This document shows positions 24,198 through 62,036 of a stretch of 64,000 nt of DNA, piece after piece. Origin of the DNA: Celeribacter neptunius (GTDB taxonomy: Bacteria > Pseudomonadota > Alphaproteobacteria > Rhodobacterales > Rhodobacteraceae); assembly GCF_900113955.1 (NCBI RefSeq), contig NZ_FORH01000004.1:62001-126000 (forward strand). Reading direction: 5' to 3'. The translations under genes were made by a program, and so were the position numbers. The first letter of the stretch is position 1; each line of letters opens with the position of its first letter. The notes beneath the pieces are model-generated. The model ran no database searches and was not told the DNA's origin. It saw nothing but the letters and a program-made list of their open reading frames with translations.

Positions 24198-25187
24198 CTA
24201 GATCAAAGCGGTCATGACCTCCGCTGCGATCTCGAAAGAGCGGATGCGCGCCGCTTGATCATGGATCATCCCCGTCACCATCAACTCATCAGGCTGGTAG
24301 CGCTCAATCAGCGCCGTGATCTGCGCATGCACCGTGTCGCGCCCTCCGACTGCCGCGCAGCTGAGCATGCGGTCCACCTGAGACCGCACCGGAGAGGGCA
24401 TGTTGGTCACGTTTTCGAGTGACGGCTTGGGCAATTTACCCCGATTGTTGGTCACAATGTTGGCAAAGGCCTGCAGCTGCGATGATCGCAAATACGTCGC
24501 CTCCTCATCGCTCTCGGCGGCGCAGACGCTGGCCGCCATGACCGCATAGGGTTCGGCGAGCGCGTCCGAGGGCTGAAACGTGCTGCGATAGACATGCAGC
24601 GCTTCGCCCAGCATGTCCGGGGCGAAATGTGATGCGAAGGCGTATGGCAGACCGAAATGCGCGGCGAGTTGTGCACCGTAGAGGCTCGACCCCAGAATCC
24701 ACACCGGCACGTGGGTGCCCATACCGGGAATGGCCCGCACCGGCGCGCGTTCGGGCATATCACCCAGGTAAGAGATCAATTCCTGCACATCCTGCGGGAA
24801 GGTGTCGCCCTGTTGCATGTTCCGGCGCAGCGCGCGGGCGGTCAACATATCCGTGCCCGGCGCCCGTCCGAGGCCCAAATCAATCCGACCGTTGTTCATC
24901 AAGGACAGCGTGCCGAATTGCTCAGCCACCATCAGCGGGGCGTGGTTGGGCAACATGATGCCTCCCGCCCCGACCCGCATCGTCTTGGTCGCCGCTGCGA
25001 TCTGACCAATCAGGACCGCCGTGGCGGAGCTTGCGATGCCGATCATGTTGTGATGCTCAGCCACCCAATAGCGGTGATACCTCGCCTCTTCCGCCGCCAC
25101 GGCAAGGGCCACGCAATTGGCCAGCGCCTCATCGACACCATGGCCTTCGGCAACTGGGGCAAGATCGAGGAGCGAATAGCGTTTCAT
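24198..25187 (-). CDS. Luciferase-like (LLM) flavin-dependent monooxygenase, paralogue
   Basis: Encodes 329 residues from ATG 25187 (CAGGAC upstream on the minus strand). It is the same LLM subfamily as the gene at 1797: [48 protein letters not shown] and [12 protein letters not shown] are almost block-identical between the two. The enzyme would use reduced FMN. It is the last gene of a minus-strand operon led by the ABC transporter genes, 110 bases after acetoacetyl-CoA synthetase. This copy may serve the catabolic region, but its substrate is unknown. Confidence 0.85.
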
Positions 25188-25297
25188 GATGGATGTCCTG
25201 ACGTTTTCATTCGGTGTTTCATTCATAAGCGTTGTGACGAAACCCGGTGTCGCAAACAATCGCACGCCGGGTCTGCGGGATCTCTCAACCGCGCGTT

Positions 25298-27265
25298 TCA
25301 GGTCGTGAGCGGGGCAATGTCGCGAAACGCCTCCAACGCCTCCGGGTTGGCCAGCGCGCCGATATTCTTGGCCGCCCGGCCTTCGATGACATCCCGCACG
25401 GCCAGTTCCGAGACCTTGCCGCTTTTGGTGCGTGGAATATCGGTGACCGCGAGGATCAGTGCCGGAACGTGGCGCGGCGAAGCCCCGCGCCGGATCGCGG
25501 TCTTGATCTCACGGATCAGCCCATCGTCCAACACAGCCCCCGCGCCCATCACCACGCATAGCACCACGCGCACATCATCCCCGGTCGACTGACCGACAAC
25601 GACGGCCTCCTCGATCTGGGCAAAACGCCCGACTTCGGCATAGATTTCCGCCGTGCCGATCCGCACCCCGCCCGGGTTGAGCGTTGCGTCCGAGCGCCCG
25701 TGGATCACATAACCGCCGCCGTCGATCTGCTCGGCGAAATCGCCCTGGCACCAGACGCCGGGAAAGCGGTCGAAATAGGCGGCTCGGTATCGCGCGCACC
25801 CTGCGTCATTCCAGAACCCCAGAGGCATAGTCGGAAACGGCTTGGTACAGACCAGTTCGCCTTTTTCACCGGGGACAACCGGCTTGCCCGCATCGGACCA
25901 GACCTCGACAGCGAGGCCCAGCCCCGCCGACTGGATCACCCCGCGCGCAACGGGACGAGTCGGGTCCCCCAAGACGAAGCAGGACAGAATATCCGTCCCG
26001 CCCGAAATTGACGCCAAATGCAGGTCGGGTTTCAGCACCTGATACACGTAATCATACGCCTCGCCCAAAAGCGGCGCACCGGTGGAGAGCATCGTGCGCA
26101 ATGCGGAGAGGTTATGATCCGGCCCCGGAGCGAACCCGGCGGAGCGCAACCCGTCGAGATATCTCGGCGAGGTCCCAAATTGCGTCATTCTCTCGTCGCG
26201 GGCGTAGTCGAACAGCACGCCCGGGCCGGGATGGAATGGCGAGCCATCGAACAGCAAAAGCGTCGCCCCCCGCGCCAATCCGGACACCAGCCAATTCCAC
26301 ATCATCCAGCCCAGCGTGGTGAAATAGAACATCCGATCGCCGGGGCGCAGATCCACATGCAGCGCGTGTTCCTTGAGGTGCTGCAACAACACGCCGCCCG
26401 CGCGGTGCACGATGCATTTCGGTGCGCCGGTCGTACCGGAGGAAAAGGTCACATAGAGCGGGTGGTTGAACGGCATCGGCACGAACTCGCAAGGCTGCGC
26501 CTCAAAAGCAGCCTCGAAAGCATCGAAACTTGTGGCCTTTGGCAGCGCTGCGGCGGTGGCCTCTGCGGTCCCGAGATAGTCGATGATCACGCAGGCCTTG
26601 ACCGTCTCAAGCCCGGCCATCGTCTCGGCAAGCTTGTCGGCAATGGCAAAGGGTTTGCCCGCATACCAATAGCCATCACAGGCAAAGAGCACCTTTGGCG
26701 CGATCTGACCGAACCGGTCCAGGATGACACGTGGCCCGAAATCGGGTGAGGCCGAGGCCCAGACCGCCCCCAGCGAAGCGGTGGCGAGCATGGCGGCGAC
26801 CGCCTCGGGCCGGTTCGGCAACAGACCCGCGACCCGATCCCCCGGACCGACGCCCGCGGCCCGCAAGGCCAGTTGAAGCCGCGACACATGTGCCTCCAGA
26901 TCGTCCCAGCTCCAGCGCAGCGCAGATTTGTCCTCTCCTCGAAACACCAGTGCATCGCGGCGCCCGTCGTCGGGCCGCGCCAGATGCAACAGGTTCTCCG
27001 CAAAGTTCAGCGTGGCGTTGGGAAAAAAATCCGAGGACGCCATGTCCTCTCCGACCAGATAGGGCCCGTCGCCCTTATCGCCGATGACGTGAAAAAAGTC
27101 CCACAAGGCCGACCAGAACCGCGCCGGGTCTTCGAGCGCGCGGGTTGTCAGAGCCTCGGTGTCCGACAGGTCTGCGCCGGTTTCATGGGCAAAATAGGCC
27201 CGAAATCGTGCCATTTCGCTCTCATGGGCGCGGTCATCGCCCGGCTCCCAAAGGATATTTGACAT
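25298..27265 (-). CDS. Acetoacetyl-CoA synthetase (acetoacetate-CoA ligase)
   Basis: Encodes 655 residues, the family's usual length. It is an ANL adenylating enzyme with the AMP-binding motif [17 protein letters not shown], the [10 protein letters not shown] block and the C-terminal hinge and lysine region ([10 protein letters not shown]). The N-terminal [16 protein letters not shown] and [13 protein letters not shown] mark it as acetoacetyl-CoA synthetase rather than acetyl-CoA synthetase. The reaction is acetoacetate + ATP + CoA. Acetoacetate is one product of fumarylacetoacetate cleavage encoded 10 kb away, which gives this gene a clear place in the pathway. It lies 30 bases downstream of the TSUP gene in the same operon. 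Confidence 0.9.
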
Positions 27266-27295: not shown

Positions 27296-28063
27296 TCAGG
27301 CGACCGCATCGATATAGGCCTGCCAGATCAGCACGAAGCTGACGAAAAACAGGATCAGGGTGATGATCAGGTTGAAGGCACGCGGATCGACGTAGCGCAC
27401 CAGCCGCGATCCGGCCCAGCTTGAGGCCACAGCCAGCGGGATGAAGAACAGGCTGAGATGCACGGTTTCCCGATTGTAGAAGCCCAGGGCGGCGAAACTC
27501 GGAAGCTTCATCAGGTTCAGCGCGGCAAAGAACATCACGCTGGTGCCGACATAGATCTCTTTGCGCAGGTGCTTGGGCATCACGTAGATCTGGAACGGCG
27601 GCGACCCGGCATGCGCGATGGCACTGGCAAACCCGCCCGCGGCCCCCGCCCCGATACCGATCAGCGTGTCGTGGCGGGGCTGGGCCGGAATATCGGGCAG
27701 CCCCCGTGACATCAGCACCGCCTGCCAGATCGAGAACAACAGGGACACGCCACCCAAGGCCGCCTTGATCACCCATTCCGGCACGCTCGACGCCAGAAGA
27801 TAGGCCGCGAGCACCCCGATGATACCACCCGGGATCATCTTTTTCAGGATCGTCTTGTCGAATTCGAACCGGTAGAGATAGACCGCGACCACATCCTGCA
27901 CGATCATGATCGGCAGCATCAGCGCAACCGCCGTCAAAGGGTCGCTGAAGGCCGCCACCAGGGGCGTGCTGACCATGCCGATGCCGGCGAAGCCGCCCTT
28001 GGACAGGCCAAGTATGGTCACGGAGATCGTCAGCACGATCAGGAATGTCAGATCAGGCGTCAT
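27296..28063 (-). CDS. TSUP (TauE/SafE) family membrane transporter
   Basis: Encodes about 255 residues from ATG 28063. It is hydrophobic throughout, with about eight membrane segments in two halves. The glycine-rich family repeats are seen as LSKGGFAGIGMVSTPLVA and GAGAAGGFASAIAHAGSPPF. TSUP proteins export sulfite, sulfoacetate or organic anions. Its placement between an EthD gene and acetoacetyl-CoA synthetase suggests movement of an organic acid linked to the catabolic pathway, but the direction and substrate are open. Confidence 0.85.
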   Translation of the reverse strand: MTPDLTFLIVLTISVTILGLSKGGFAGIGMVSTPLVAAFSDPLTAVALMLPIMIVQDVVAVYLYRFEFDKTILKKMIPGGIIGVLAAYLLASSVPEWVIKAALGGVSLLFSIWQAVLMSRGLPDIPAQPRHDTLIGIGAGAAGGFASAIAHAGSPPFQIYVMPKHLRKEIYVGTSVMFFAALNLMKLPSFAALGFYNRETVHLSLFFIPLAVASSWAGSRLVRYVDPRAFNLIITLILFFVSFVLIWQAYIDAVA

Positions 28064-28096
28064 GTTCTGTCTTGACCGCAATCCGACGCGGATGCG

Positions 28097-28768
28097 TCAG
28101 GACAGCCCCCTCACACAGTGCGGCTCAACGAGAAAAGTCGAGATTTCCGCAATGAATTCCTTGGCATGCATCATCGTCGTGTTGCCGATGTCGGATTGAA
28201 AGGCGCTGTCGATCGTCTCGCCGTCCGGGAACCAGAGCTCGACCATCCCGTCGACCATCATGTGCCCGTCTTCGTCGCGCGGCCCGTCAAGCACGAGGTT
28301 CTGGCGATAGCCCGCAAGCCCCGGCAGGCGTTTGACCAAAAGGCCGTGCAACTCGAACCATTGCTTTTGAAACTCCTCGCTCGACACATCCGGGCGTTTG
28401 CGCAGGATCGACATCCGCTTGAGCCCCTGCCCCAGGACGGGCGGTTCGACCACGGTGTTTTGCAGGCAGAGGATCGACTGCATCTCCGCCACCAAAGGCC
28501 CCGGCAGCCCCATGGACAGGTTGAAACTGCCCATCGAGGCCGCCGTCATACTGGCGGAAATGTCGGGAAAGAAAAACTGCGTGATCGCATCCAACTCCAC
28601 CCCGCCACGGGCGTAAGAGATGCCCTTTTGACTGTTGTCGACAACGCGGTTGAACACGCCCCCCAGACAGAGATCGCCGACACCGCGGCGCATGGCCTCT
28701 TCGTTGTCAAAGTAGCTGGTCTCGGAAAGATCGGTCGCGGTCTGGATCAGACCCATTACGGTAATCAC
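28097..28768 (-). CDS. EthD-domain protein (two-repeat type)
   Basis: Encodes 223 residues from a GTG start at 28768 (GAGGTGC just upstream). It belongs to the dimeric alpha/beta-barrel EthD superfamily. The second half has the canonical start MSILRKRPDVSSEEFQKQWF-HGLLVKRLPGLAGYRQNLV-type block; the first half looks like a degenerate copy, so the protein is a fused pair of barrels. EthD proteins assist oxygenases or act on small cyclic compounds. A paralogue at 52186-52878 shares the plan and C-terminal HAKEFIAEI block. It sits between the ABC permease (73 bases) and the TSUP gene (33 bases). Confidence 0.78.
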   Translation of the reverse strand: MITVMGLIQTATDLSETSYFDNEEAMRRGVGDLCLGGVFNRVVDNSQKGISYARGGVELDAITQFFFPDISASMTAASMGSFNLSMGLPGPLVAEMQSILCLQNTVVEPPVLGQGLKRMSILRKRPDVSSEEFQKQWFELHGLLVKRLPGLAGYRQNLVLDGPRDEDGHMMVDGMVELWFPDGETIDSAFQSDIGNTTMMHAKEFIAEISTFLVEPHCVRGLS

Positions 28769-28841: not shown

Positions 28842-29837
28842 TCACGGCCGACCGAAATACTCGGGGATATGACGCACCGCGACAGCAATGATAATGGCCA
28901 GCGCCTGCACGAGGAGCTGCACGGAGGTTCCCGCACCGAGCGCGAGCACCATCTGGCCAAGCTGGGTCATGAAGAGGGCGGCGACACCGCTGGCGATCAC
29001 GCTGCCGCGCCCGCCGTTAAAGGGCGTGCCGCCGACCACCACCGCCGCGATGGCAGGCAGGAGGTAATCGACACCGGCGGTTTGCGAAGCAGAGCCGATG
29101 AAACCAGTGAAGAGCATGCCCGCGACGGCGAAACACAGCGAAGCGATGGCATAGGTCGCCACCTGATAGCGCAGGATCGGGATACCCGCCGCCGTCGCCG
29201 CCGCCGGATTGGCGCCCACCGCGACAAAGCGACGGCCCGGGATGGTGCGCTTGGTCACGATGCTGATCACGATAATGAAAAGCATGGCGAGAATGAGCGT
29301 CATCGGCACACCGAAGAGCTTCGCATGCGAGAACTCGGCCAGCTCGGCAGGCGCGGTCATCGGGCTACCGCCGGACACGGCGCGCACGGCCCCCATCAGG
29401 ATGGCATTCGTTGCCAGCGTCGTCACGATCGGCGTGATGTTGAGTTTCGCCACCAGCAAACCGTTGACGATGCCGATACCCAAGGCGATGGCCAGCGTCA
29501 GCGGCACCGCCAGAAGTGTCGAACCGGTGGTAAACCCGATCTGGGCGAACAACAGGCCGGCGATGGTCATCATGCCCGGCAGGGACATATCGAGACCGCG
29601 TTGCTGGATCACGATGGTCATGCCCACCGCCGTGATCGCGAGGATCGCGGCAAACGGCAGCATCGAACTGATCGCGGCAGGGCGCACAACGCCCGGCGCA
29701 ACAAAGCTGCACAGGATGAAAAGCGCAATCGTCCCACCCCAGATCCACGAAAATTCATTGAAGACCGTGGACTTGATCTGTTGGCCAAAGCTGGGCTGGG
29801 TCATGGTTTTTCTTTCTGTCGTCAGGGTCATGGTCAT
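28842..29837 (-). CDS. Sugar-type ABC transporter permease (RbsC family)
   Basis: Encodes 331 residues with about 8-10 membrane helices. The family blocks are GMTIVIQQRGLDMSLPGMMTI, AVGANPAAATAAGIP and the C-terminal AAVVVGGTPFNGGRGSVIASGVAALF. BPD_transp_2 permeases of this type import sugars, polyols or related ring compounds together with an RbsA-like ATPase. Its start overlaps the stop of the fused ATPase-permease gene by 4 bases, so the importer would use two different permease units, one of them fused to the ATPase. No binding protein is encoded in this operon. Confidence 0.9.
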   Translation of the reverse strand: MTMTLTTERKTMTQPSFGQQIKSTVFNEFSWIWGGTIALFILCSFVAPGVVRPAAISSMLPFAAILAITAVGMTIVIQQRGLDMSLPGMMTIAGLLFAQIGFTTGSTLLAVPLTLAIALGIGIVNGLLVAKLNITPIVTTLATNAILMGAVRAVSGGSPMTAPAELAEFSHAKLFGVPMTLILAMLFIIVISIVTKRTIPGRRFVAVGANPAAATAAGIPILRYQVATYAIASLCFAVAGMLFTGFIGSASQTAGVDYLLPAIAAVVVGGTPFNGGRGSVIASGVAALFMTQLGQMVLALGAGTSVQLLVQALAIIIAVAVRHIPEYFGRP

Positions 29838-32311
29838 GCCTGCACCACTTTCTCACGGCTCTTCGAGTAGAGCGCCACGGAGGCGAGGATGAGGAACCCG
29901 AGGAGATATTGCTGCCATTCCTGACTCAGGCGCAGGAAGACGGTGACCGAGTTCACCTGGGTGATGAAAATCGCGCCTAGAAGTGCGCCGATGAAGGACC
30001 CGCGCCCGCCAAAGAGGCTGGCGCCCCCGATCACCACCGCCGCGATGGAGCCCAGCGTGTAGCTGATGCCAGCGCGCGGATCGCCGATGCCGACCTGTGC
30101 GAACATGGTGATGGCGGCGAGACCGGCAAAGATCGAACAGCCGACATAGGCAATCAGGCGCACCATGACCGGACGAATCCCGGCGGTGCGCGCCGCTTCC
30201 TGACGCGACCCGAGACCGCGCATCGAAACGCCGAGGCTACGCCGGAACAGCACATATTCCATGACCAGCGCCAGCACGACAGCGGCGATGAAGGTCACGG
30301 GCACGATGCCCACCTTGGTGTTCAGCGCGTTCATCAACTGACCGTCCAGCATGCCTCCGGGCACCGGACGCAGGAACAGGGACACCGCCTGAACCGCCAT
30401 GAAGGTTGCGAGCGTGGCCACCATCGGGTGCAACCGCAGCCCCTCGACCAGCAGCCAGTTCACAAAGCCGACCACGGCCGCCACGACCAGCACGAGCATC
30501 CAGCCCAAGGCCTGATCCCCGCCCGCCGCGCCCGAGAGCAGGAAGAACGAGGCGACCACCTGCACCAGCCCCATCGTGGGCCCGACCGACAGGTCGATGC
30601 CACTGACGAGCATCAGGAATTGCTGGCCATAGGCGACGATCGCCAAAGTTGCAGCAAGCGTCATCATGTTCGAAAGGCTGCGCGGCGAGAGGTAGTACGG
30701 GTTCCACGCCCCGGCCACGGCGCCCAAGAGCGCAATCGCGAGGCCGACCATGATCAACGGCGCGCTGTTGCCCGCGGCCCATTTCCAGAAGGCGCCCAAG
30801 GATTTGTGATGCTTGTCACGCTGCTCGGTGGATTTGAGCACCGAGGCGGTGATGTTGTCCTCGGTCACACGATCGCCTGTGAGCATTTCCACCACGCGCC
30901 CGCGCGAGAAAATCGCCACATGATCGGACAGCCCGGCGACCTCCTGTTGGTCCGAAGACACGAGGATGACGGCGACACCGGCGCGGGCCGCCTCGCGGAT
31001 CACGCGGTAAATCTCCGCCCGCGCGCCAACATCGACGCCCTGGGTCGGTTCATCGACCAAAAGCACTTTCGGCTTCATCGCCAGAACACTCGAGAGCACA
31101 ACCTTTTGCTGATTGCCGCCAGAGAGCGACTGGATCGGGGTTTCGCCGTTCGGCGTCTTCACCGCGAATTGCCTGATCGCCTCGCGGGTCCGCCCCTGCT
31201 CAACACGGCTGCTGACCAGGCCCAGACGGGTGTCCTCATGCGCGCTGCGGATCGAGAAATTCTCGCGGATCGACAGTTCGGGAAAAATCCCCTCGCGATG
31301 GCGATCACCCGGCAGGTAGCTGATGCCAAGCGCCTTGGCGCCCTGGCTCGACCGGATCTGGATGTCCTTGCCGCTGAGCGTCAGATGGCCATGGCCGCGA
31401 TGGATGCCCGCAAGCGCGCGCATGAATTCGCGTTGCCCGTTGGCGTCGATCCCGGCAAGGCCGAGGATCTCGCCCGCCCGCACCTGAAGCGAGACATTGG
31501 AGAACCCCGGACCGGAGAACTCCTGCGTCGCCAGAACCGTTTCGTGATGACCGGGGGTGGCCTTGTCGGGGAAGGTCCGGTCGAGATCGCCACCGACGAT
31601 CAGAGAAACGATCTGATCTTCGTTCAACTCGCGGGCGGGATAGGTCCCCTGCCCCTCACCGTCGCGCAGCACCGTCAGACGGTCGGCGATGGCCTGCACT
31701 TCGCGAATGCGGTGCGAAATATAGACCACAGAGGCACCCCGCGCCGTCACCTTACGCACGCGATCAAAGAGACGTTTGACGTCCTCGGTCGCGAGGTGTT
31801 CGGTTGGCTCGTCGAGCACAAGAACCTTCGGCTCACATTCCAGCGCCTTGACGATTTCGACGATGAACCGCTGTTCCGGGTTCAGCGTCGTGATGTGATC
31901 GCGCGGGTCGATGGAGACATCGTCGCTCCAATGCAAAAGCAGCTTGCGCGCCCAGTCATTGAGCCCCGACAGGGAGGGTCTGCGCGCATGGGGCAGGCCG
32001 AGATAAAGGTTTTCCGCCACCGACAGATCCGGCATCAAGGCGGGTTCCTGGCGCACAATCGCCAGACCCAGCTCACGCGCCAGATCCGGGTCCGCCGACA
32101 CTTCAGTGCCGTCGATGCGCACCGTGCCTTCGGTCGCCTGCAAGGCCCCGGAAGCGACGCCCATCAGCGTGGATTTGCCCGCGCCGTTTTCCCCGACCAA
32201 CCCGTGCACCTCACCCGCCCGAACGTCGAACGTGATCTCGTGCAGCGCGCGAACGCCCGGGAAATGCTTGGAAACGCCCTGCATCTCCAGCAAAAGCTTC
32301 TCGCTTTGCAT
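29834..32311 (-). CDS. Fused ABC ATPase (two NBDs) and permease, RbsA-RbsC type
   Basis: Encodes 825 residues, about the sum of RbsA (~500) and RbsC (~320). Residues 1-495 hold two ATPase domains and residues ~515-825 a permease with VGGASLFGGRGSFIGALLG near its end. NBD1 has Walker A GENGAGKST (40-48) and Walker B VLVLDEPT (163-170), but its signature reads LNPEQ (143-147) where LS-x-G-Q is expected. NBD2 has the degenerate P-loop usual in RbsA (GIDANGQRE, 287-295) and an intact LSGGN (396-400). One composite ATP site should work and the other looks fully dead. It is the first gene of the six-gene operon and has a strong GGGGAGGAAA ribosome-binding site. Confidence 0.9.
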   Translation of the reverse strand: MQSEKLLLEMQGVSKHFPGVRALHEITFDVRAGEVHGLVGENGAGKSTLMGVASGALQATEGTVRIDGTEVSADPDLARELGLAIVRQEPALMPDLSVAENLYLGLPHARRPSLSGLNDWARKLLLHWSDDVSIDPRDHITTLNPEQRFIVEIVKALECEPKVLVLDEPTEHLATEDVKRLFDRVRKVTARGASVVYISHRIREVQAIADRLTVLRDGEGQGTYPARELNEDQIVSLIVGGDLDRTFPDKATPGHHETVLATQEFSGPGFSNVSLQVRAGEILGLAGIDANGQREFMRALAGIHRGHGHLTLSGKDIQIRSSQGAKALGISYLPGDRHREGIFPELSIRENFSIRSAHEDTRLGLVSSRVEQGRTREAIRQFAVKTPNGETPIQSLSGGNQQKVVLSSVLAMKPKVLLVDEPTQGVDVGARAEIYRVIREAARAGVAVILVSSDQQEVAGLSDHVAIFSRGRVVEMLTGDRVTEDNITASVLKSTEQRDKHHKSLGAFWKWAAGNSAPLIMVGLAIALLGAVAGAWNPYYLSPRSLSNMMTLAATLAIVAYGQQFLMLVSGIDLSVGPTMGLVQVVASFFLLSGAAGGDQALGWMLVLVVAAVVGFVNWLLVEGLRLHPMVATLATFMAVQAVSLFLRPVPGGMLDGQLMNALNTKVGIVPVTFIAAVVLALVMEYVLFRRSLGVSMRGLGSRQEAARTAGIRPVMVRLIAYVGCSIFAGLAAITMFAQVGIGDPRAGISYTLGSIAAVVIGGASLFGGRGSFIGALLGAIFITQVNSVTVFLRLSQEWQQYLLGFLILASVALYSKSREKVVQA

Positions 32312-38357: not shown

Positions 38358-38384
38358 TTCAAGTCCTTCGTCCATTTTCGGCCG

Positions 38385-43825: not shown

Positions 43826-43842
43826 GATTTCCTCCCTAGACC

Positions 43843-48981: not shown

Positions 48982-49081
48982 GCTCTGACGAAATTTCGGA
49001 GGGCACCAAGACCTGAGCGCCCTCCGCACCGCATCGCCAAACGCGCCAAAAGACGCGTAGGATGCAACGTTACGCACAAAA

Positions 49082-52878: not shown

Positions 52879-52902
52879 CCGGAAAAACCAAAGCACAAAA
52901 AA

Positions 52903-54054: not shown

Positions 54055-54099
54055 TGCTTCCTCCTCTTGAGCAATTGCGGGTGAATTCAGTTCGCCATC

Positions 54100-55410
54100 T
54101 CAGTTCGCCACGGCGGGCAGCCAGAGCGACAGGATCGGAAAGCCGATGATCAGGGCGAGGGTGACAAAATCGGACAACAGAAATCCGAACGTCCCGCGGA
54201 AGATCTGGCCCAGCGTGACCTCATCGCCCAAAGCGCCTTTGACGACGAAAATGTTGAGCCCCATGGGGGGCGTGACCATGCCCATCTCCAAAAGTTTGAC
54301 CGCAATGACGGCAAACCAGATCGGATCGATGCCGAAATGCTGGAGCACGGGCGTCAGGACCGGCAGGGTCAAAAGCATGATCGACACAGGTTCGAGAAAA
54401 CAGCCCATGACCAGATACAGCAAAGAGATCGCAAGGATCACGCCGAGCTGGGTCTGGAACTGGGTCGCGACGAGATCGGAGAAATAGCCCGCGATCCCGG
54501 TCAGCCCGAGCATGCGCTGAAACAGCGCGGCCCCCACCACGATGATGAAGATCGAGGCCGTGCCAGTCGCAGTTCGCCGGATCGCATCGGCAAAGCTCAC
54601 CCGGGTCAGGGACCGGCGCACCAGCGCCAAAAGAATGGTCAAAGCCGCGCCCACCGCCCCCGCTTCGGTCGGGGTGAACAACCCGACAAAGATGCCACCG
54701 ATCACGCAGAGGATGATGAGCGGCAAGGGCCAGACATCGCGGAAGGCTTCACGACGCTCGGCCTTGGAAATCTCCTCGGTCGCCTTGGGCGCGAGGGACG
54801 GATTCAGCCAGACCCGGATGGTAATGTAGAGAATGAACACCACCGCCGACAAAAGCCCCGGAATAAGACCCGCGAGGAACAGGCTGTTGATCGATTCCGA
54901 CATGGTGATGCCATAGACGATCATCAGCACGGAGGGCGGGATCAGCGCGCCCAAGGTTCCGGCCGCCGCGACCGACCCGGTGGCCAGCCCCGGGTGGTAG
55001 TTCATCCGCATCATCTCCGGCACGGCGGTGCGGGAAAAGGCGGCGGCGGTCGCCACGCTCGATCCGCTGGCCGAGGCAAAGAGCGCCGCCGAGATCACTG
55101 TGGCCGAGGCCAGCCCGCCCGGCATCCAGCCCAGCGTGATGCGGGCGGATCGAAACAGGTTCTTGGTCAGGTCCGACGAGGCAGCAACATAACCCATCAA
55201 CAGAAACATCGGGATGGCCGACAGGTTCCAGTCCCCCACCATCTCAAACGGCACGGCGGTCAGGATGCCCAGGCCCGCCTTGAGACTTATCGCCACGGAA
55301 ATCCCGCCGAAGGCCACAACCCCCATCGCGATCCCCACGGGCACGCGAATGGCCACGAGGAAAAGGACGAGTGCGGTGCTCAGCGCACCAATCAATTCAC
55401 GCTCAGACAT
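54100..55410 (-). CDS. TRAP transporter large permease 2 (DctM)
   Basis: Encodes 436 residues from ATG 55410, chosen because it begins the first membrane helix region (MSERELIGALSTALVLFLVAIRVPVG); an upstream start would add a long arginine-rich leader that overlaps dctQ. DctM blocks are ASASGSSVATAAAFSRTAVPEM, AGTLGALIPPSVLMIVYG, GLFTPTEAGAVGAALTILLA and MGMVTPPMGLNIFVVKG. It is directly adjacent to dctQ. Confidence 0.92.
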   Translation of the reverse strand: MSERELIGALSTALVLFLVAIRVPVGIAMGVVAFGGISVAISLKAGLGILTAVPFEMVGDWNLSAIPMFLLMGYVAASSDLTKNLFRSARITLGWMPGGLASATVISAALFASASGSSVATAAAFSRTAVPEMMRMNYHPGLATGSVAAAGTLGALIPPSVLMIVYGITMSESINSLFLAGLIPGLLSAVVFILYITIRVWLNPSLAPKATEEISKAERREAFRDVWPLPLIILCVIGGIFVGLFTPTEAGAVGAALTILLALVRRSLTRVSFADAIRRTATGTASIFIIVVGAALFQRMLGLTGIAGYFSDLVATQFQTQLGVILAISLLYLVMGCFLEPVSIMLLTLPVLTPVLQHFGIDPIWFAVIAVKLLEMGMVTPPMGLNIFVVKGALGDEVTLGQIFRGTFGFLLSDFVTLALIIGFPILSLWLPAVAN

Positions 55411-55411
55411 C

Positions 55412-55933
55412 TCACACCGGCTCCGAATAATCGTGGGTGGCCGCTTTCGAGCCGGACACGAGCGCCCGGACGGCCTGTTCAAGCTTGGCCAGCGCCGCAA
55501 GCGCCGCGACGAAAAGACCGAGCGGCATGAGAATGCGCGCGGGCCAGATCGGCACATTCCAGGTGCCGGTGACATATTCCTTGATCTCAAAGGCCTCGAC
55601 GGCGACCTTGAAATAGAGCCAGCCCAAAAGGACATAGAAGCCGACCGCGAGAAGATGCCCGACGATGTCGAACACATCTTTCACGGCGTCCGGCACCTGA
55701 TCGCGCAGGATGTCCACCGCGATGTTTTCATCCAGAAGCTGCAACAGCCCCAGCGGCAGAAAGATGGTCGCGACCATCAGATATGAGGCGACAATCGTGT
55801 CGATCCCCGGGATCGCGACATTGAACACCGCGCGCCCCAACACATCCGCCACGACCAGCACCAGCATCGCGAGAATGCCAACCCCCGCGAGGCCGATCAT
55901 CGCCCGGCTGATCCAGTTTACGAACCTTTGCAT
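55412..55933 (-). CDS. TRAP transporter small permease 2 (DctQ)
   Basis: Encodes 173 residues from ATG 55933, which has AGGAAGGGAGGGAG upstream on the minus strand. Four membrane helices are visible, beginning AMIGLAGVGILAMLVLVVADVLGRAVFN, followed by the DctQ-typical LLDENIAVDIL and WPARILMPLGLFVAAL. It lies between the FAD-B gene (17-base gap) and dctM. Confidence 0.87.
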   Translation of the reverse strand: MQRFVNWISRAMIGLAGVGILAMLVLVVADVLGRAVFNVAIPGIDTIVASYLMVATIFLPLGLLQLLDENIAVDILRDQVPDAVKDVFDIVGHLLAVGFYVLLGWLYFKVAVEAFEIKEYVTGTWNVPIWPARILMPLGLFVAALAALAKLEQAVRALVSGSKAATHDYSEPV

Positions 55934-55949
55934 CGGCTCCCTCCCTTCC

Positions 55950-57680
55950 TCAGCTTGCGGACTGGCCGGAAGCATGCAGCCCGGCGATGTATCCGAAGGT
56001 CATGCCCGGCCCGAGTGTGATCCCGCCGCCGGAGTAGTTGCCGCCCAGCACACTCGACATGTCGTTGCCCGCCGCATAGAGCCCGGCGATGGCCTGACCG
56101 TCCTCATCGAGCACACGGGAGTTGCGGTCGGTGCGAATGCCGCTGAATGTCCCGATGGTGCCGGGAATGACGCGCACCGCGTAGAACGGCCCTTGCGCAA
56201 TCGGCGCGAGACAGGGGTTCGGCGTGACACTCGGGTCACCATGGAACCGGTTATAAGCCGTGCTGCCGCGTCCGAATTCCGTATCCGTCCCCGTCGGCAC
56301 ATCGGCGTTGAACCTTGCCACGGTGTCCGTGAACGCAGTCGCCTCAAGCCCTACATTGCGCGCCAACTCCTCAAGCGTCTTGCCGGTCATCAGATAGCCC
56401 GACTTGATCGAGGGGCCGAGCGGCAGAGGCGCGGGTTTGACATGGCCGAGACCATATTTGCGAATGGTCCGGTGATCGCAGATCAGGAAGCCTTCGGCAG
56501 GTTGCCCGTCCGGCGTCGCCCGCTCCAGCCCCTGCACGAAATCATGATAACTGTTCGCCTCGTTGACAAAGCGGCGCCCATTTCGCGTGACGGCGATCAC
56601 ACCGGGTTTGCCCCGGTCGATGAAATGCGGGAACGGCCCCTTGGTGCCATCGGGACGCGGCACAAGGCTCACGGGTGCCCAGGCCCCGGCATTGGGGTAA
56701 TCCATCTGGGTCGCGGCGCCGATCCTTTCGGCAAGGGCCACACCATCGCCAGTGTTGCCCGGGCTGGCCGCAGAGACATGTTCGCCCTCATTGGCCACAT
56801 GTTTGTACAGCTTTTTGCGTCGCGCCACGTCCTGCGGAAAGCCGCCACAGGCCAGAACGACACCCTTCTTGGCCTCGATCCGGCGCAGCCCCTGCGGGGT
56901 GAGGACGACCGCGCCGGTCACCGCCCCTGTTTCGTCGCGCAACAGTTCCTTCACCGGGCTGTCGAGCATGACCTCGACCCCGAAATCACGGGCCGACCGA
57001 TAGAGCCGCGCCGCCAAAGCATTGCCGTTGGTCAACAATTGCGACCGCCCGGTCAGCGCCTTGTCCAGGCCGAATTTGGTCAGGCGGCGGCTCACATAGG
57101 CAAAAGACACCGGCGATTGAAACGCCCGGTAAAAGTGCCAAAGCTCCTTGCCAGAGCCGATGGCCAGACCGAAGAGGGTCAACTCCTTGCGCGGCGGGCG
57201 CAGCTTTTCGATGTCTGCTCCGAGGATCGAGGCCTTGACCGGTTTGGTCAGGATCGAGCGCCCGCCCGGCACACCGCCCGGCGCATCGGGATGATAGTCG
57301 GAAAAGGCGGGCGAAGCCTCGAACCGCACATGGGTGTTGCGCTCCATGAAATCGATCATCTCAGGTCCCGCATCCAGAAACGCTTCGGCGCGCTCGGCAT
57401 CGAAATAATTGCCGGCCTCGTGACGGATATAGGCGTTGGCCGCCTCTTTCGTGTCCTCGACACCGGCCTCTTTACTGACCGGGTTGTTCGGCACCCAGAG
57501 ATAACCACCCGACAGCGCGGTGGTACCGCCAAAGACCGGCTCTTTCTCGGCCACGATGACCTTGAGCCCGTGTTTTGCCGCCACGATCGCGGCACTCATG
57601 CCGCCCGCGCCGGAGCCCGCGACCAGAAGATCACAGGACAGAGTTTGCATAGCCGTATCGGCGAGAGGTGCGTTTTGCAT
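55950..57680 (-). CDS. KstD-like FAD-dependent dehydrogenase, copy B
   Basis: Encodes 576 residues, a paralogue of the 33482 gene with nearly the same block order: VAGSGAGGMSAAIVAAKHGL, EKEPVFGGTTALSGGYLWVPNN, FSDYHPDAPGG, RFVNEANSYHDF and GNYSGGGITLGPGMTFGYIAG. Tyr549 and Gly553 keep the Y-x3-G pair of KstD enzymes, although the residue after Tyr is Ser instead of Pro. It would desaturate a ring ketone next to the carbonyl. It lies 44 bases after SDR-B and 17 bases before TRAP genes, so the transporter may bring in its substrate or that of SDR-B. Confidence 0.85.
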   Translation of the reverse strand: MQNAPLADTAMQTLSCDLLVAGSGAGGMSAAIVAAKHGLKVIVAEKEPVFGGTTALSGGYLWVPNNPVSKEAGVEDTKEAANAYIRHEAGNYFDAERAEAFLDAGPEMIDFMERNTHVRFEASPAFSDYHPDAPGGVPGGRSILTKPVKASILGADIEKLRPPRKELTLFGLAIGSGKELWHFYRAFQSPVSFAYVSRRLTKFGLDKALTGRSQLLTNGNALAARLYRSARDFGVEVMLDSPVKELLRDETGAVTGAVVLTPQGLRRIEAKKGVVLACGGFPQDVARRKKLYKHVANEGEHVSAASPGNTGDGVALAERIGAATQMDYPNAGAWAPVSLVPRPDGTKGPFPHFIDRGKPGVIAVTRNGRRFVNEANSYHDFVQGLERATPDGQPAEGFLICDHRTIRKYGLGHVKPAPLPLGPSIKSGYLMTGKTLEELARNVGLEATAFTDTVARFNADVPTGTDTEFGRGSTAYNRFHGDPSVTPNPCLAPIAQGPFYAVRVIPGTIGTFSGIRTDRNSRVLDEDGQAIAGLYAAGNDMSSVLGGNYSGGGITLGPGMTFGYIAGLHASGQSAS

Positions 57681-57724: not shown

Positions 57725-58492
57725 TCAGTTGGTCAGGTAACCGCCATCGACCGGCAGCATGACACCCGTGACATAGCTGGACAGCTTCGAGGCCAGGAAC
57801 AACACGGGGCCGACCAGTTCCTCTGGCGTCCCAACACGTCCCATCGGCGTGTGGGACATGAACCGCTCCATCGCCTGCGCATTGGCACGCGTGCCCTCGG
57901 TCATGGGCGTCGCGATAACGCCCGGCGCGATGCCGTTGACACGAATGCCACGGCCAGAGAGATCACAGGCCAGTGCCTTGGTCAGTTGAATGACCCCACC
58001 TTTCGAGGCCGCGTAACTGGCGGAATTCTTGTAGGCCACGAATGAGGCAATCGAGCCGAGATTGACGATGCGACCGGCCGTGGCCTCCAGTTGATCCAGA
58101 AGCGCGACCACCATATGGGCCGAGCCCTTGAGGTTCACGGAAAGCTGCGCATCGAGATCGTTCAGAAAGCTCGGCTCCTCCGGGGCGGTGCGTCGGGTAA
58201 TGCCCGCGTTGTTCACAAGGATCGACACGTCGCCAAAGACCGCTTTGGCCTCTTGTGCAAAACCCGCGCAGGCATCCCTATCGGAGACATCAAGCGCAAA
58301 GCCCCGCGCCTTGCCGCCCGTCGCCTCAATTTCGGCGGCGACTGCTGCGGCTCCCTTCCCGTTCATGTCACACAAAAGGACCGCAGCCCCCGACTCGGCC
58401 AGCCCTTTGGCAATGGCGGCACCATTGCCCTGCGCCGCGCCAGTGACCACGGCAACTTCCCCGTCCAGCAGGCCTGGAACACGTATATCCAT
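57725..58492 (-). CDS. SDR-family dehydrogenase, copy B
   Basis: Encodes 255 residues. It is a classical SDR, paralogue of the 32715 gene: VVTGAAQGNGAAIAKGLAESG, CDM after strand 2, NNAGITRR, LGSIAS (Ser), YAASKGG (Tyr-x3-Lys) and the ending LPVDGGYLTN. It is the first gene of the operon with FAD-B and TRAP-2. The promoter region contains a TTGACA on the minus strand (58616-58611) and the GTTGC-N4-GCAAC operator placed over the expected -10 area. Confidence 0.88.
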   Translation of the reverse strand: MDIRVPGLLDGEVAVVTGAAQGNGAAIAKGLAESGAAVLLCDMNGKGAAAVAAEIEATGGKARGFALDVSDRDACAGFAQEAKAVFGDVSILVNNAGITRRTAPEEPSFLNDLDAQLSVNLKGSAHMVVALLDQLEATAGRIVNLGSIASFVAYKNSASYAASKGGVIQLTKALACDLSGRGIRVNGIAPGVIATPMTEGTRANAQAMERFMSHTPMGRVGTPEELVGPVLFLASKLSSYVTGVMLPVDGGYLTN

Positions 58493-58568: not shown

Positions 58569-58589
58569 GCAAGCAACGCATAGAGAAAT

Positions 58590-58603
58590 GTTGCATGCGC
58601 AAC
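58590..58603. promoter_or_regulatory. GTTGC-N4-GCAAC operator, SDR-B/IclR-3 divergent region
   Basis: GTTGCATGCGCAAC is an exact match to the fixed positions. It is 98 bases from the SDR-B start and 57 bases from the IclR-3 start, and just downstream of a TTGACA on the minus strand, where a bound repressor would block the SDR-B operon. Confidence 0.75.
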
Positions 58604-58659
58604 GAGTATGTGTCAACACTCTTTTGGAGACCTCAAGACGCCCCGGCGAGGAACGGAAG

Positions 58660-59475
58660 ATGGACGGACAGTCAACAGCCTTGGATAAGCCAGGAAAATC
58701 GGCCCGCGGTGGCGTTCAATCCGTTGAAGTGGCAGGGAAACTCCTGCAGGTGCTGTTGCAGTCGGACGGTCCGATGAAACTGGCCGAGATCGCTGCAGAG
58801 GTGGAAATGCCCTCAGCCAAGGTGCATCGCTACCTCGTCAGCCTGATCCGCACCGGCTTTGTCCAGCAATCCAAGGAATCGTCGAAATACGACCTCGGCC
58901 CCATCGCGTTTCAGCTTGGGCTCAAGGGATTTGCCCGGTTTGAACCGCTGAAACTGGCAGAGTATATGTTGCAGGAACTGGTGGAGCTGGTCGGCGAAAC
59001 CGCCGCCCTCGCCGTCTGGACCGCCAAGGGCGCGACGATGATCCGAGTCATCGAGGCAAGGCATGATTTCGCCACCACCATCGCCCCCACCCATCATTGC
59101 CCGATGACCTTTTCCGCGACGGGTGTGCTGTTTTCCAGCTATGAGGACGAGGTCCGCACCGAGCCGCTGATCGAGCGCGAGTTGGAACAGAACCGGATCA
59201 GCGGCCGCCCCAACTCGCCCCTTGATCGTGCGGAGCTGGACGCCATGATCGGCGCCACGACCGCACGCGGCTATTCTTGCATGACGGATGGCGGCGGCGA
59301 TGGCTTTGGGGCGGTGAGCGCGCCGGTGTTCGATGTGACCGGCAAGCTGGTGATGGCGGTCACCGTCTTTGGTCGCAGCAACCGTGTGGATGCCACGGCG
59401 GATGGCACGCTGGCCCGGATCGTGGCGCGGACGGCGGCGAAAATCTCAGCGGCCTTTGGCTATGTCACACCGTAA
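58660..59475 (+). CDS. IclR-family transcriptional regulator 3
   Basis: Encodes 271 residues from ATG 58660; an earlier in-frame ATG at 58588 lies inside the operator and lacks a ribosome-binding site. The winged helix is GVQSVEVAGKLLQVLLQSDGPMKLAEIAAEVEMPSAKVHRYLVSLIRTGFV; the effector domain has TFSATGVLFSSY and RGYSCMTDGGGDGFGAVSAPVF. It is divergent from SDR-B/FAD-B/TRAP-2 and is the likely local regulator of that operon. Confidence 0.9.
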   Translation: MDGQSTALDKPGKSARGGVQSVEVAGKLLQVLLQSDGPMKLAEIAAEVEMPSAKVHRYLVSLIRTGFVQQSKESSKYDLGPIAFQLGLKGFARFEPLKLAEYMLQELVELVGETAALAVWTAKGATMIRVIEARHDFATTIAPTHHCPMTFSATGVLFSSYEDEVRTEPLIERELEQNRISGRPNSPLDRAELDAMIGATTARGYSCMTDGGGDGFGAVSAPVFDVTGKLVMAVTVFGRSNRVDATADGTLARIVARTAAKISAAFGYVTP

Positions 59476-59484
59476 CCGCGCGGC

Positions 59485-59976
59485 TCAGGTGTCAATGCCC
59501 TGAAGGTCCATTGCCGAGCGGGGCCGAGCCAAAGGATCCTCATCCAGCGCAGCATGCATCTTTTCCATGACCGCGTAGAACATCGCCAGTTCCTCGGGCG
59601 AGATGGTTTCGAGCAAGGCGCGCTCGACCTGCATCGCCTCCGGCAGGATGCTGTCGAGTGCCTCCACACCTTTTGCCGAGAGCGAGATCTCGACCAGGCG
59701 GCCGTCTGAGGCCCCCGGCACCTTCGCCACAAGACCCGCGTTTTCAAGCCGTGTGACGGCGCGGCTGACCCGCGATTTTTCGAGGTTCACGCAGTTGTGG
59801 ATTTCCCGCACGGACACCCTTTCGCAGCGATTCAGGTGCACCAGAACGCGCCATTCGGCGACCGACAGGCCCAGCGGCTTGTCATAGGCGACCGAAACGC
59901 GCCGACTTGCGCGCTCTGACAAAACCGCCAGCCGATAGGGAAGAAAGGCCGAGAGATCGAACTCAACAGACTGCAT
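59485..59976 (-). CDS. MarR-family transcriptional regulator 2
   Basis: Encodes 163 residues from ATG 59976 (GAGGA upstream). The winged helix contains LSVAEWRVLVHLNRCERVSVREIHNCVNLEKSRVSRAVTRLENAGLV and the wing SDGRLVEISLS. It is divergent from the aromatic hydroxylase gene and faces two copies of the TTGC-N4-GCAA-type site, so it is probably the repressor of the hydroxylase operon and of itself. Confidence 0.88.
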   Translation of the reverse strand: MQSVEFDLSAFLPYRLAVLSERASRRVSVAYDKPLGLSVAEWRVLVHLNRCERVSVREIHNCVNLEKSRVSRAVTRLENAGLVAKVPGASDGRLVEISLSAKGVEALDSILPEAMQVERALLETISPEELAMFYAVMEKMHAALDEDPLARPRSAMDLQGIDT

Positions 59977-60017
59977 CGCAAAATCCTCACTTATTGCACC
60001 GACAATGATATTGACTT

Positions 60018-60035
60018 TTGTTGCGAGCGCAACAA
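60018..60035. promoter_or_regulatory. GTTGC-N4-GCAAC operator, MarR-2/hydroxylase divergent region
   Basis: TTGTTGCGAGCGCAACAA is an inverted repeat with 7-base arms around GAGC. It lies 42 bases upstream of the MarR-2 start codon and directly after a TTGACT (60011-60016) on the plus strand. Confidence 0.78.
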
Positions 60036-60046
60036 TCAATGGACTC

Positions 60047-60060
60047 ATTGCACTTGCAAC
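60047..60060. promoter_or_regulatory. Second, one-mismatch copy of the operator
   Basis: ATTGCACTTGCAAC matches 9 of the 10 fixed positions of GTTGC-N4-GCAAC and is spaced 27 bases, centre to centre, from the site at 60018-60035, so two regulator dimers could bind cooperatively. Confidence 0.5.
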
Positions 60061-60199: not shown

Positions 60200-61831
60200 A
60201 TGTTCGACGACAGATACGCACTGGCCCACAAGGTCTACCCCTATGAAAAATCGCCGGATCAGGACCTGCCACAGGCCGTCCGCCACCCGGTCGTCGTGGT
60301 CGGCGGCGGTCCGATCGGGGTCGCCACGGCGCTCGATCTGGGCCAACAAGGCATTCCCGTGGTGATCCTCGACGATCACGAGGGCATTGGCATGGGCAGC
60401 CGGGCGATTTGCTTTTCGAAACGCACGATGGAAATCGCAGACCGCTATGGATGCGGCCAGCCGATGCTCGACAAAGGCGTGATCTGGAACCTCGGAAAAG
60501 TGTTTCACCGTTCCGAAAAGGTATTCGAGTTCAACCTCTTGCCGGAAAAAGGCCACAAATACCCGGCCTTCATCAACCTGCAGCAACCGTATTTCGAACA
60601 CGACATGATCGACCGTTTGCGCGCGCTCCAGGCCGAGGGTGCCCCGATCCAGCTCCGGGGCAAAAACCGGGTCGATGCAATCGAGGTCAAAGACGACCAT
60701 GTCGTGCTCGACGTGATGACCCCGGACGGCCCCTACAAAATAGAGGCCGACTGGCTCGTGGCCTGCGACGGGGCCAACTCGCCGCTACGCACCATGCTGG
60801 GCCATGATTTTTCCGGCAAAGTCTTCGAGGACAGTTTCCTGATCGCCGACATCAAGATGAAAGAAGGCGCCGAGTTTCCGACGGAGCGTTGGTTCTGGTT
60901 CGAGCCAGATCACGGTCAGGGCGCCTCGGTTCTGTTGCACAAACAACCGGATGACGTCTGGCGCGTGGATTTCCAGATCGGCTGGGACGTGGACCGCAAG
61001 GAAGAGTTGAAAGAAGACAACATCCGCCGCCGCCTCGACGCCTTTCTCGGCCGGGACGATTATGAAATCGTCTGGTCCTCGATCTACACGTTTCGATGCA
61101 AGCGCATGGAGCGCTTTCGCCACGGCCCCGTCTTTTTCGCCGGGGATGCAGCGCATCAGGTCTCGCCCTTCGGCGCGCGCGGGGCAAATTCGGGGATGCA
61201 GGACGTCGACAATCTCGGCTGGAAACTGGGTCTCGTGATCCAAGGTAAAGCGCCCGAAGCCCTGCTCGACAGCTATTCCGAAGAACGGGTCTATGGGGCG
61301 GATGAAAACATCCTGAACTCGACACGGTCGACAGATTTCATCACGCCAAAATCCGAGATCAGCAAGACCTTCCGCAATGCGATCCTCGGCCTCGCGCAAC
61401 AGACGGCCTTTGCCCGCCCGCTGGTCAACTCCGGTCGTCTTAGCGTGCCCTGCGTCTATGACGGCTTGTCGTTGAACGGTCCCGATGCCTTGCCCGGCGG
61501 CCCGGAACAGACCCGCGTCGGCGCGCCGATGGTGGATGCGCCGCTCGATGATGGCCAGGAGGAGGGCTGGCTGCTCGACCGCATCGGCGGTGCATTTCAA
61601 CTCATGACAATCGACGCCGACGCGCCCGAGACTCTGGAGATCGACGGCATCCCGGTGACCCGTGTCACGCTGACCGCCGAGGGCCATCCCGAGCTTGCAG
61701 CACGGTATCTGGGGGAGGCCATCTCCGCCGTCTACCTGATGCGTCCGGATCAACATGTGGCCGCCCGTTGGGCGCGCTTCGACGAGGACGCGCTGCGCGA
61801 GGCGCTCAAGATTGCAACCGCAAAAGCCTGA
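60200..61831 (+). CDS. Class A FAD-dependent aromatic hydroxylase (MhpA/MhaA-like)
   Basis: Encodes 543 residues with an AGGAGGAGGAAAC leader. The three signatures of single-component flavin hydroxylases are present: GGGPIG (35-40), the DG motif ACDGANSPLRT (D190-G191) and the GD motif FFAGDAAHQVSPFGARGANSG (G315-D316). A C-terminal thioredoxin-like domain follows from about residue 400. It uses NAD(P)H and O2 to hydroxylate a phenolic acid. A 63-residue DUF2783 gene follows immediately, as a small partner does in the MhaAB 3-hydroxyphenylacetate 6-hydroxylase that makes homogentisate. The homogentisate cleavage operon in the same region fits that role; other phenols such as 3-(3-hydroxyphenyl)propionate remain possible. 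Confidence 0.85.
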   Translation: MFDDRYALAHKVYPYEKSPDQDLPQAVRHPVVVVGGGPIGVATALDLGQQGIPVVILDDHEGIGMGSRAICFSKRTMEIADRYGCGQPMLDKGVIWNLGKVFHRSEKVFEFNLLPEKGHKYPAFINLQQPYFEHDMIDRLRALQAEGAPIQLRGKNRVDAIEVKDDHVVLDVMTPDGPYKIEADWLVACDGANSPLRTMLGHDFSGKVFEDSFLIADIKMKEGAEFPTERWFWFEPDHGQGASVLLHKQPDDVWRVDFQIGWDVDRKEELKEDNIRRRLDAFLGRDDYEIVWSSIYTFRCKRMERFRHGPVFFAGDAAHQVSPFGARGANSGMQDVDNLGWKLGLVIQGKAPEALLDSYSEERVYGADENILNSTRSTDFITPKSEISKTFRNAILGLAQQTAFARPLVNSGRLSVPCVYDGLSLNGPDALPGGPEQTRVGAPMVDAPLDDGQEEGWLLDRIGGAFQLMTIDADAPETLEIDGIPVTRVTLTAEGHPELAARYLGEAISAVYLMRPDQHVAARWARFDEDALREALKIATAKA

Positions 61832-61844
61832 GGAGGAGCCGCAG

Positions 61845-62036
61845 ATGACCACAGTGAACACTGCCCCGAACATTGCCAAACCCGACGATTTCTATGCCCG
61901 GCTTCTGGCCGCGCATGAGGGAAAATCCAAAGCCGAGAGCGACGAGATCAACGCCCGCCTCGCCCTGATCCTGAGCAATCACATCGGCGATATGGAGGTG
62001 CTTGAGGAAGCAATCGAGCTGGCCTCCAGAGCTTGA
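61845..62036 (+). CDS. DUF2783 small protein, likely hydroxylase partner
   Basis: Encodes 63 residues from ATG 61845 (AGGAGGAG upstream), 13 bases after the hydroxylase stop. It is mostly helical and acidic, with DDFYARLLAAHEGKSKAESDEINARLALILSNHIGD-type features of DUF2783. MhaB, the 3-hydroxyphenylacetate hydroxylase coupling protein, is of similar size and also lacks enzymatic motifs, so this protein may prevent wasteful NAD(P)H oxidation by the flavoprotein. That function is inferred from context and size, not from a motif. Confidence 0.78.
   Translation: MTTVNTAPNIAKPDDFYARLLAAHEGKSKAESDEINARLALILSNHIGDMEVLEEAIELASRA

Follow-up and report, generated by a model that had tools for sequence, protein, structure and literature searches.

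A gene block in Celeribacter neptunius that may link the oxidation of non-aromatic rings to homogentisate cleavage

In the Chc route, a ring acid is aromatised by an SDR enzyme together with desaturases of the KstD fold. The names ChcB, ChcC1 and ChcC2 are used here as given by NCBIfam, for the system of Corynebacterium cyclohexanicum ATCC 51369. According to the accessible part of PMC5906575, cyclohexanecarboxylate is aromatised to 4-hydroxybenzoate. Further close known systems are the cyclohexanone dehydrogenase of Alicycliphilus denitrificans (PDB 8am3) and MhaAB, the 3-hydroxyphenylacetate 6-hydroxylase, which consists of 566 and 60 aa in Pseudomonas putida U and of 560 and 60 aa in Burkholderia xenovorans LB400, where it lies beside hmgABC (accessible part of PMC3053370). 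This study concerns a stretch of 64,000 nucleotides from Celeribacter neptunius (contig NZ_FORH01000004.1, positions 62,001 to 126,000), hereafter called the window, in which genes of these kinds form two modules: a core block at 24198-52878 and a right-hand module at 52951-62036. The reading put forward, which we regard as evenly poised between right and wrong, is that the block may turn a non-aromatic ring compound into homogentisate and then degrade it, the two modules meeting at homogentisate. Among the publications listed in literature searches, which covered few subscription journals, none has a title or abstract opening that describes such a block.

The window is like the Chc route in carrying SDR and KstD-like enzymes, and differs from it in that these pairs are linked to homogentisate genes instead of 4-hydroxybenzoate, with side-chain oxidation genes and two importers added. 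For both KstD1 and KstD2 the ChcC2 model outscores three steroid-named dehydrogenase models, and the scores stay below the curated cut-offs of ChcC2 (582 bits for KstD1 and 551 for KstD2 vs 900), ChcC1 (324 and 349 vs 1000) and the 3-ketosteroid Delta1-dehydrogenases (NF009478, 498 and 480 vs 789; NF005882, 460 and 453 vs 788). The same holds for SDR1 and SDR2 against ChcB (ChcB2, 168 and 177 vs 350). A kinship to 4-oxocyclohexanecarboxylate desaturases, as proposed in a first-pass annotation of the window, is thus reduced to a resemblance. Its assignment of the two proteins as KstD-like dehydrogenases is borne out by Tyr119, Tyr318, Tyr487 and Gly491 (Rhodococcus erythropolis numbering), which we take to be the catalytic residues of steroid KstD and which are kept in 41 of 41 KstD1 sequences and in KstD2. 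KstD1 has, in addition, an invariant lysine (Lys409) at what is presumably a pocket position.

The source genome (4.40 Mb, 18 contigs, 99.99% complete) belongs to a marine host of the genus Celeribacter. Genes were called from open reading frame (ORF) length and third-position G+C and named via Pfam and NCBIfam, with curated NCBIfam cut-offs as the test of enzyme family membership; sequence searches took in only matches within the E limit set for each search. The block was compared across 11 lineages by aligning fetched stretches with the window proteins. Scanning the contigs of genomes yielded 75 loci with KstD1 relatives at 66-97% identity, and HmgA, HPD and MhaA were counted in the 40 named genomes behind them; absence of MhaA means no match at E up to 1e-60, and absence of HPD none over the TIGR01263 cut-off. 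A separate set held 61 relatives, and a wider family set 295 Rhodobacteraceae. All genes named by the first-pass annotation were recovered (Table 1): the flavin hydroxylase with its DUF2783 protein, HmgA, MaiA, FahA and the acetoacetate-CoA ligase all exceed their cut-offs, and the two SDR/KstD-like pairs, OYE, two EthD proteins, GMC and ALDH are present. The VOC, MBL, LLM and TauE/SafE proteins, a CUT2-type ABC importer and two TRAP importers are added here.

Since HmgA, MaiA and FahA all exceed curated equivalog cut-offs, the homogentisate central pathway is recognised in the block; hmgA is a single copy in the genome, and the acetoacetate-CoA ligase could take the acetoacetate released by FahA. 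The same genome has no HPD (best TIGR01263 match 21 bits vs a cut-off of 277), so that the tyrosine route via HPD is not recognised. Among the 61 relatives, HmgA is found in 25, eight of which have no HPD over the cut-off; four of these eight also have no DUF2783, namely C. naphthalenivorans, C. litoreus and Celeribacter sp. PS-C1, all with KstD1, and a further Celeribacter (G007) without it. The 40 named KstD1 genomes contain HmgA in 38, HPD in 25 and MhaA in 28 cases. GMC, which serves as a marker for the block, is matched at E 1e-150 in ten of them (67-98% identity), and with the source genome included, HPD occurs in 2 of 11 GMC genomes vs 23 of 30 others. The two GMC genomes with HPD are Mesorhizobium comanense, in which the block hmgA is broken, and Sinisalibacter, whose fetched stretch contains no hmg genes. 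The genomes in which the block, or one of its halves, was shown to carry an intact hmgA are those of C. neptunius, C. naphthalenivorans, C. litoreus, PS-C1, Aquimixticola and the two Salipiger, and HPD exceeds the cut-off in none of them (0/7); Mesobacterium, also without HPD, was left out of these seven because its hmgA lies on a contig of its own. Five of the seven are also without MhaA, the exceptions being C. neptunius and Salipiger pentaromativorans. Together with two Marinobacterium, which carry VOC and no hmgA, these five make up seven genomes that have ring-cleavage genes and KstD1 and neither HPD nor MhaA, and they fall in two places on the KstD1 tree. In searches limited to HPD and MhaA, no source of homogentisate could be found in them except the block's own enzymes.

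The block itself is well conserved. C. naphthalenivorans and C. litoreus match the core block gene by gene, with unchanged order and identities of about 79-99%, so that about 27-28 kb are kept in order in two congeners; the acetoacetate-CoA ligase is missing from the block of C. naphthalenivorans and, among the 11 lineages, is found at full length in C. litoreus only. The block is in halves in PS-C1, at the ends of two contigs, and in Salipiger bermudensis, at opposite ends of a single 814-kb contig. One contig of Aquimixticola soesokkakensis carries almost the whole block; maiA is displaced there, and a ligase was not found. Mesobacterium carries block parts on three contigs (KstD1-SDR1-ABC; GMC-VOC-TRAP1-OYE; HmgA-MaiA-FahA), and no ALDH or MBL was found in these three pieces. 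M. comanense has a shorter block with about 10% of hmgA left, and the two Marinobacterium, which are gammaproteobacteria, have much of the block at 31-77% identity; the versions of Salipiger, Mesobacterium and Marinobacterium are rearranged. Over the 11 lineages, KstD1 is found in 11, GMC, EthD2 (at least 56%) and FahA with MaiA in 10 each, VOC in 9, SDR1 (65-95%) in 9, and a full or nearly full hmgA in 7, two of them split over two stretches. The SDR match in Marinobacterium, ~24 kb from KstD1, is equally near SDR1 (50%) and SDR2 (52%). Judged by the conserved order in congeners and the recurrence across genera and class, the grouping exceeds chance expectation, and the previously suggested link between KstD-like and homogentisate enzymes is upheld in that KstD1 and the homogentisate genes keep company in several genera, gammaproteobacteria included.

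A second ring-opening enzyme may be present beside HmgA. The VOC protein is similar over its full length to PDB 9u42 (66% identity over 168 columns in Foldseek; phmmer 5e-80), whose entry title names a homogentisate 1,2-dioxygenase from Acinetobacter, the title being our source for that activity. As the structure model of VOC is poor (mean predicted local distance difference test, pLDDT, 65.4; Foldseek root-mean-square deviation to 9u42 16.9), the match rests on sequence, and 9u42 is not among the 50 matches listed by VIA for the model. H8, E66, H85 and E133 are invariant in 12 of 12 sequences and are presumably metal ligands, by analogy with glyoxalase I. VOC is a probable second homogentisate 1,2-dioxygenase, and the genome would then probably carry two different kinds of enzyme that open the homogentisate ring. 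In Acinetobacter baumannii AB4353, which has no hmgA homologue, a type I ring-cleaving dioxygenase gene lies between hmgC and hmgR and was judged probably inactive (accessible part of PMC7646211); we infer that this is the 9u42 protein. An active VOC enzyme would fit genome G037, with no HmgA at E 1e-60 and VOC beside MhaB and MhaA, and the two Marinobacterium, with no HmgA in the genome and VOC, FahA and MaiA in a row.

The right-hand module carries a large flavoprotein followed by a coupling protein of ~60 aa, which is the MhaAB architecture (543 and 63 aa in the window, likened to MhaAB by architecture and size); the pair differs from known MhaAB in lying 20 kb from hmgA and beside TRAP2, KstD2 and SDR2. 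It is adjoined by the second SDR/KstD pair only. Elsewhere, MhaA relatives adjoin DUF2783 and stand near hmgA: 16 relatives have DUF2783, in 12 of them no more than about 7 kb from hmgA, and a common operon outside the block comprises HmgA with FahA/MaiA, MBL, MhaA and MhaB. Within the fetched stretches of the 11 lineages, MhaAB and TRAP2-like genes are near the block in S. pentaromativorans only (MhaA 76%, MhaB 59%, DctM2 79%, DctQ2 70%, DctP2 67%), where their neighbours are an SDR and a KstD-like gene other than KstD1 and KstD2; the 76-kb contig, which has no GMC, also bears the adjoining hmg genes and KstD1. Mesobacterium has MhaAB (62 and 51%) in a separate hmg operon. KstD2 is not always tied to MhaAB, given that G214 carries KstD2-SDR2-IclR3 (82, 79 and 68%) without MhaAB on a 13.5-kb contig and DUF2783 on another. 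An island inserted at tRNA-Arg (62151-62227) was also considered and rejected: 62110-62240 has no exact repeat of at least 13 bases elsewhere in the window, and there is no G+C shift.

In the proposed scheme, whose substrates, step order, side-chain length and homogentisate as the product of KstD1 are all predicted, the starting material would be an alicyclic compound bearing a side chain of two carbons, taken up as a neutral precursor by the ABC importer and as an organic acid by TRAP1. GMC and then ALDH would oxidise the side-chain alcohol to an acetate, SDR1 the ring alcohol to a ring ketone, and KstD1 would desaturate next to that ketone. OYE and the EthD proteins would adjust the double bonds, giving homogentisate or a compound very close to it. 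Ring cleavage would fall to HmgA and the VOC-type dioxygenase, and MaiA, FahA and the acetoacetate-CoA ligase would finish the breakdown. In the right-hand module, TRAP2 would import an acid that SDR2 and KstD2 aromatise to a hydroxyphenylacetate (3-hydroxyphenylacetate by precedent), which MhaAB would hydroxylate to homogentisate. The series GMC-ALDH-SDR1-KstD1 is chemically sensible and would end in a hydroquinone if the ring already has two oxygens. A tentative version of the core route, possible although we would not bet on it, dispenses with an aromatic hydroxylase: SDR1 and KstD1 would oxidise a cyclohexyl-C2 compound with two ring oxygens straight to the hydroquinone, for cleavage by HmgA and VOC. 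In steroid ring A chemistry an analogy can be drawn for a p-quinol version, which is very improbable: a rengyol-type acid (4-oxo, with the quaternary carbon opposite) would become a 4,4-disubstituted cyclohexadienone, from which the acetate would shift, helped by the MmlI-like EthD protein, to give homogentisate.

Several observations weigh against formation of homogentisate by the block itself. The genome G007 has an hmgA (58% identical) without HPD, DUF2783 or KstD1, so an hmgA with no known source of homogentisate also occurs outside the block. With the hmgA fragment in M. comanense and no hmg genes in the Sinisalibacter stretch, the link between block and hmg genes is not obligatory; MBL in hmg-mha operons without KstD1, and VOC adjoining MhaB in two genomes without the block (G024 and G037), give no proof of a tie to KstD1. 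In Mangrovicoccus (L137), KstD1 lies near HmgA together with an HPD-like gene. A tree test of GMC vs HPD and MhaA offered only 2-4 independent comparisons and no significance, so the co-occurrence counts are descriptive. Homogentisate can also be reached by routes outside the HPD and MhaA searches made here, for example from 2-hydroxyphenylacetate via the P450 OhpA (accessible part of PMC8449657). The most direct competitor, which we consider possible yet on the unlikely side, holds that KstD1 ends at a hydroxyphenylacetate and that a hydroxylase makes homogentisate, be it MhaAB or, elsewhere, another enzyme (LLM, P450). It draws on compact clusters, defined by identities of at least 55% for TRAP1 and SDR1 and at least 60% for KstD1, with no HmgA, FahA, MaiA or VOC reaching 40%, in loci with flanks of at most 10 kb per side (19 loci being under 15 kb long). 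This form makes up 44 of the 75 KstD1 loci. In the 21 compact loci that lie in searched genomes, MhaA and HmgA are both found 21 times out of 21, vs MhaA in 7 of the 19 other named KstD1 genomes, and MBL at 70% or more occurs in 17 of the 75 loci, 12 of them compact. For the compact form, hydroxyphenylacetate is thereby favoured as the KstD1 product; this is the strongest evidence for the original scheme and speaks against extending homogentisate formation to all KstD1. That scheme, in which hydroxylation follows aromatisation, is fair for the right-hand module and perhaps for the compact clusters; as an obligatory step it fails for the left block, which has no MhaA in C. naphthalenivorans, C. 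litoreus, PS-C1, Aquimixticola, S. bermudensis and the two Marinobacterium and must therefore reach homogentisate or a close analogue in another way. LLM as a substitute is present at 87-90% in 4 of the 11 lineages and at 45-47% in the two Marinobacterium, and was not found in the fetched stretches of the other five, S. bermudensis included. DUF2783 is in any case widespread (183 of 295 Rhodobacteraceae), and KstD1 (E 1e-240) occurs in only 6 of these, 5 of them with DUF2783, so no excess of co-occurrence is shown.

Homogentisate itself need not be the product. It is improbable, in our estimate, that HmgA/VOC, MaiA and FahA of the block have shifted to a substituted hydroquinone and that an analogue is made; the divergent FahA (43%) and MaiA (49%) of Marinobacterium, a MaiA of 42-50% in five other lineages and the two dioxygenases kept side by side would suit such a shift, whereas the window HmgA, MaiA and FahA exceed equivalog cut-offs. 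Quite unlikely, too, is a chance neighbourhood in which the hmg genes belong to an ordinary pathway and the SDR/KstD enzymes act on an unrelated compound. The compact loci, being TRAP1-SDR1-KstD1 without a ring-cleavage relative in the stretches covered, and the MhaAB of C. neptunius itself are in its favour; at least one such relative is found in 10 of the 75 loci. Against chance, the association is kept in several genera and two classes despite reshuffled gene order, and HPD is missing from all seven genomes with an intact block hmgA.

Table 1. Features of the core block and the right-hand module (window positions; scores in bits)
Feature	Position	Strand	Match or remark
LLM, luciferase-like monooxygenase, MsnO8 family	24198..25265	-	TIGR03558 417 vs 167
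Acetoacetate-CoA ligase	25298..27265	-	TIGR01217 855 vs cut-off 521
TauE/SafE membrane protein	27296..28081	-	PF01925
EthD1	28097..28768	-	TIGR02118 43.5 vs 30.5; PF07110
CUT2-type ABC permease	28842..29837	-	PF02653
ABC ATPase fused to permease	29834..32311	-	PF00005 x2 + PF02653
SDR1	32715..33470	+	PF13561; PRK07231 227 vs 215
KstD1, FAD ketone desaturase	33482..35191	+	PRK06134 813 vs 747
VOC, probable second homogentisate 1,2-dioxygenase	35338..35880 (ORF opens 35946)	-	PDB 9u42
MBL, metallo-beta-lactamase-fold hydrolase in hmg operon	36139..37089	-	PF00753
FahA, fumarylacetoacetase	37110..38375	-	TIGR01266 508 vs 375
MaiA, maleylacetoacetate isomerase	38385..39059	-	TIGR01262 267 vs 171
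HmgA, homogentisate 1,2-dioxygenase, canonical type	39011..40366	-	TIGR01015 630 vs 510.75
MarR1 regulator	40472..41077	+	PF12802
ALDH	41137..42645	-	top family StyD (phenylacetaldehyde dehydrogenase), NF045735 572 vs 850, below cut-off
SBP4, periplasmic binding protein, presumed ABC importer partner	42725..43873	-	PF13407
GMC alcohol dehydrogenase/oxidase	43938..45524	-	PRK02106 618 vs 605; below betA cut-off
IclR1	45989..46777	+	PF01614
IclR2	46774..47589	+	PF01614
TRAP1	47938..50996	+	
DctP1	47938..48981	+	PF03480
DctQ1	49082..49669	+	PF04290
DctM1	49599..50996	+	PF06808
OYE, old-yellow-enzyme ene-reductase	51005..52189	+	PF00724
EthD2, tandem EthD, MmlI-like second half	52186..52878	+	PF07110 + PF09448
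TRAP2	52951..55975	-	
DctP2	52951..54054	-	
DctM2	54100..about 55410	-	start taken from translation
DctQ2	55412..55975	-	
KstD2	55950..57680	-	PRK06134 765 vs 747; 56% identical to KstD1
SDR2	57725..58492	-	PF13561
IclR3	58588..59475	+	PF01614
MarR2	59485..60048	-	PF12802
MhaA-like flavin hydroxylase	60200..61831	+	PRK08132 738 vs 416
MhaB-like small coupling protein, DUF2783, 63 aa from inner ATG	61845..62036 (ORF opens 61755)	+	PF10932 91 vs 25

Among the remaining block genes, the ABC ATPase-permease fusion is found at full length and 78-97% identity in 7 of the 11 lineages, and the PDB relatives of SBP4 are of the CUT2, sugar type only. The nearest PDB entries of DctP1 are 4pet, 5cm6 and 7ug8 ('Ketoacid-binding protein'); DctP2, too, is near entries in PDB. 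MBL has a solved relative (PDB 8d2z, 8e-112) and stays below the cut-offs of all NCBIfam beta-lactamase models listed. EthD1 matches the MmlI model weakly, below its cut-off; EthD2, whose start overlaps the OYE stop, matches the MmlI structure 3hfk at 2.8e-6. A 171-aa ORF at 52381-52896 on the minus strand, antisense to EthD2 and without a family match, was dropped. The block is bordered by a dCache chemoreceptor gene (21580-23865), with no relative in the fetched stretches of C. naphthalenivorans and C. litoreus.

Further observations concern other genomes. C. naphthalenivorans has a second KstD1 relative (78%) at about 211-220 kb (G001:C7), with GMC-like (41%), EthD, SDR and IclR genes of its own. 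In S. pentaromativorans a three-subunit xanthine-dehydrogenase-like enzyme, with 4-hydroxybenzoyl-CoA reductase alpha as the nearest model, below its cut-off, stands beside KstD1, and in Sinisalibacter an ALDH over the SSADH cut-off and a methylisocitrate-lyase-like protein lie near it. M. comanense has a full hmgA and HPD on another contig than the block. Other KstD-like paralogs (G007, G011, G012, G013 C9, G018, G024, G036) lie ~3-6 kb from a frame of 632-688 aa with a weak HPD match (187-199 bits, below the cut-off), which we take to be a dehydroshikimate dehydratase of the QsuB type; this could be a second connection between KstD-like enzymes and the aromatisation of rings.

Should homogentisate be formed by the block itself, desaturation of a ring would be a further entrance to this central aromatic pathway, beside HPD and the aromatic hydroxylases, and the presence of FahA and MaiA in genomes without HmgA, HPD or MhaA would be explained. 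The block would also offer native settings, one of them with HmgA and VOC together, for testing the VOC-type homogentisate dioxygenase, and marine alicyclic compounds such as naphthenic acids, cyclohexyl-ethanoids and terpenoid acids would gain a traceable gene marker.

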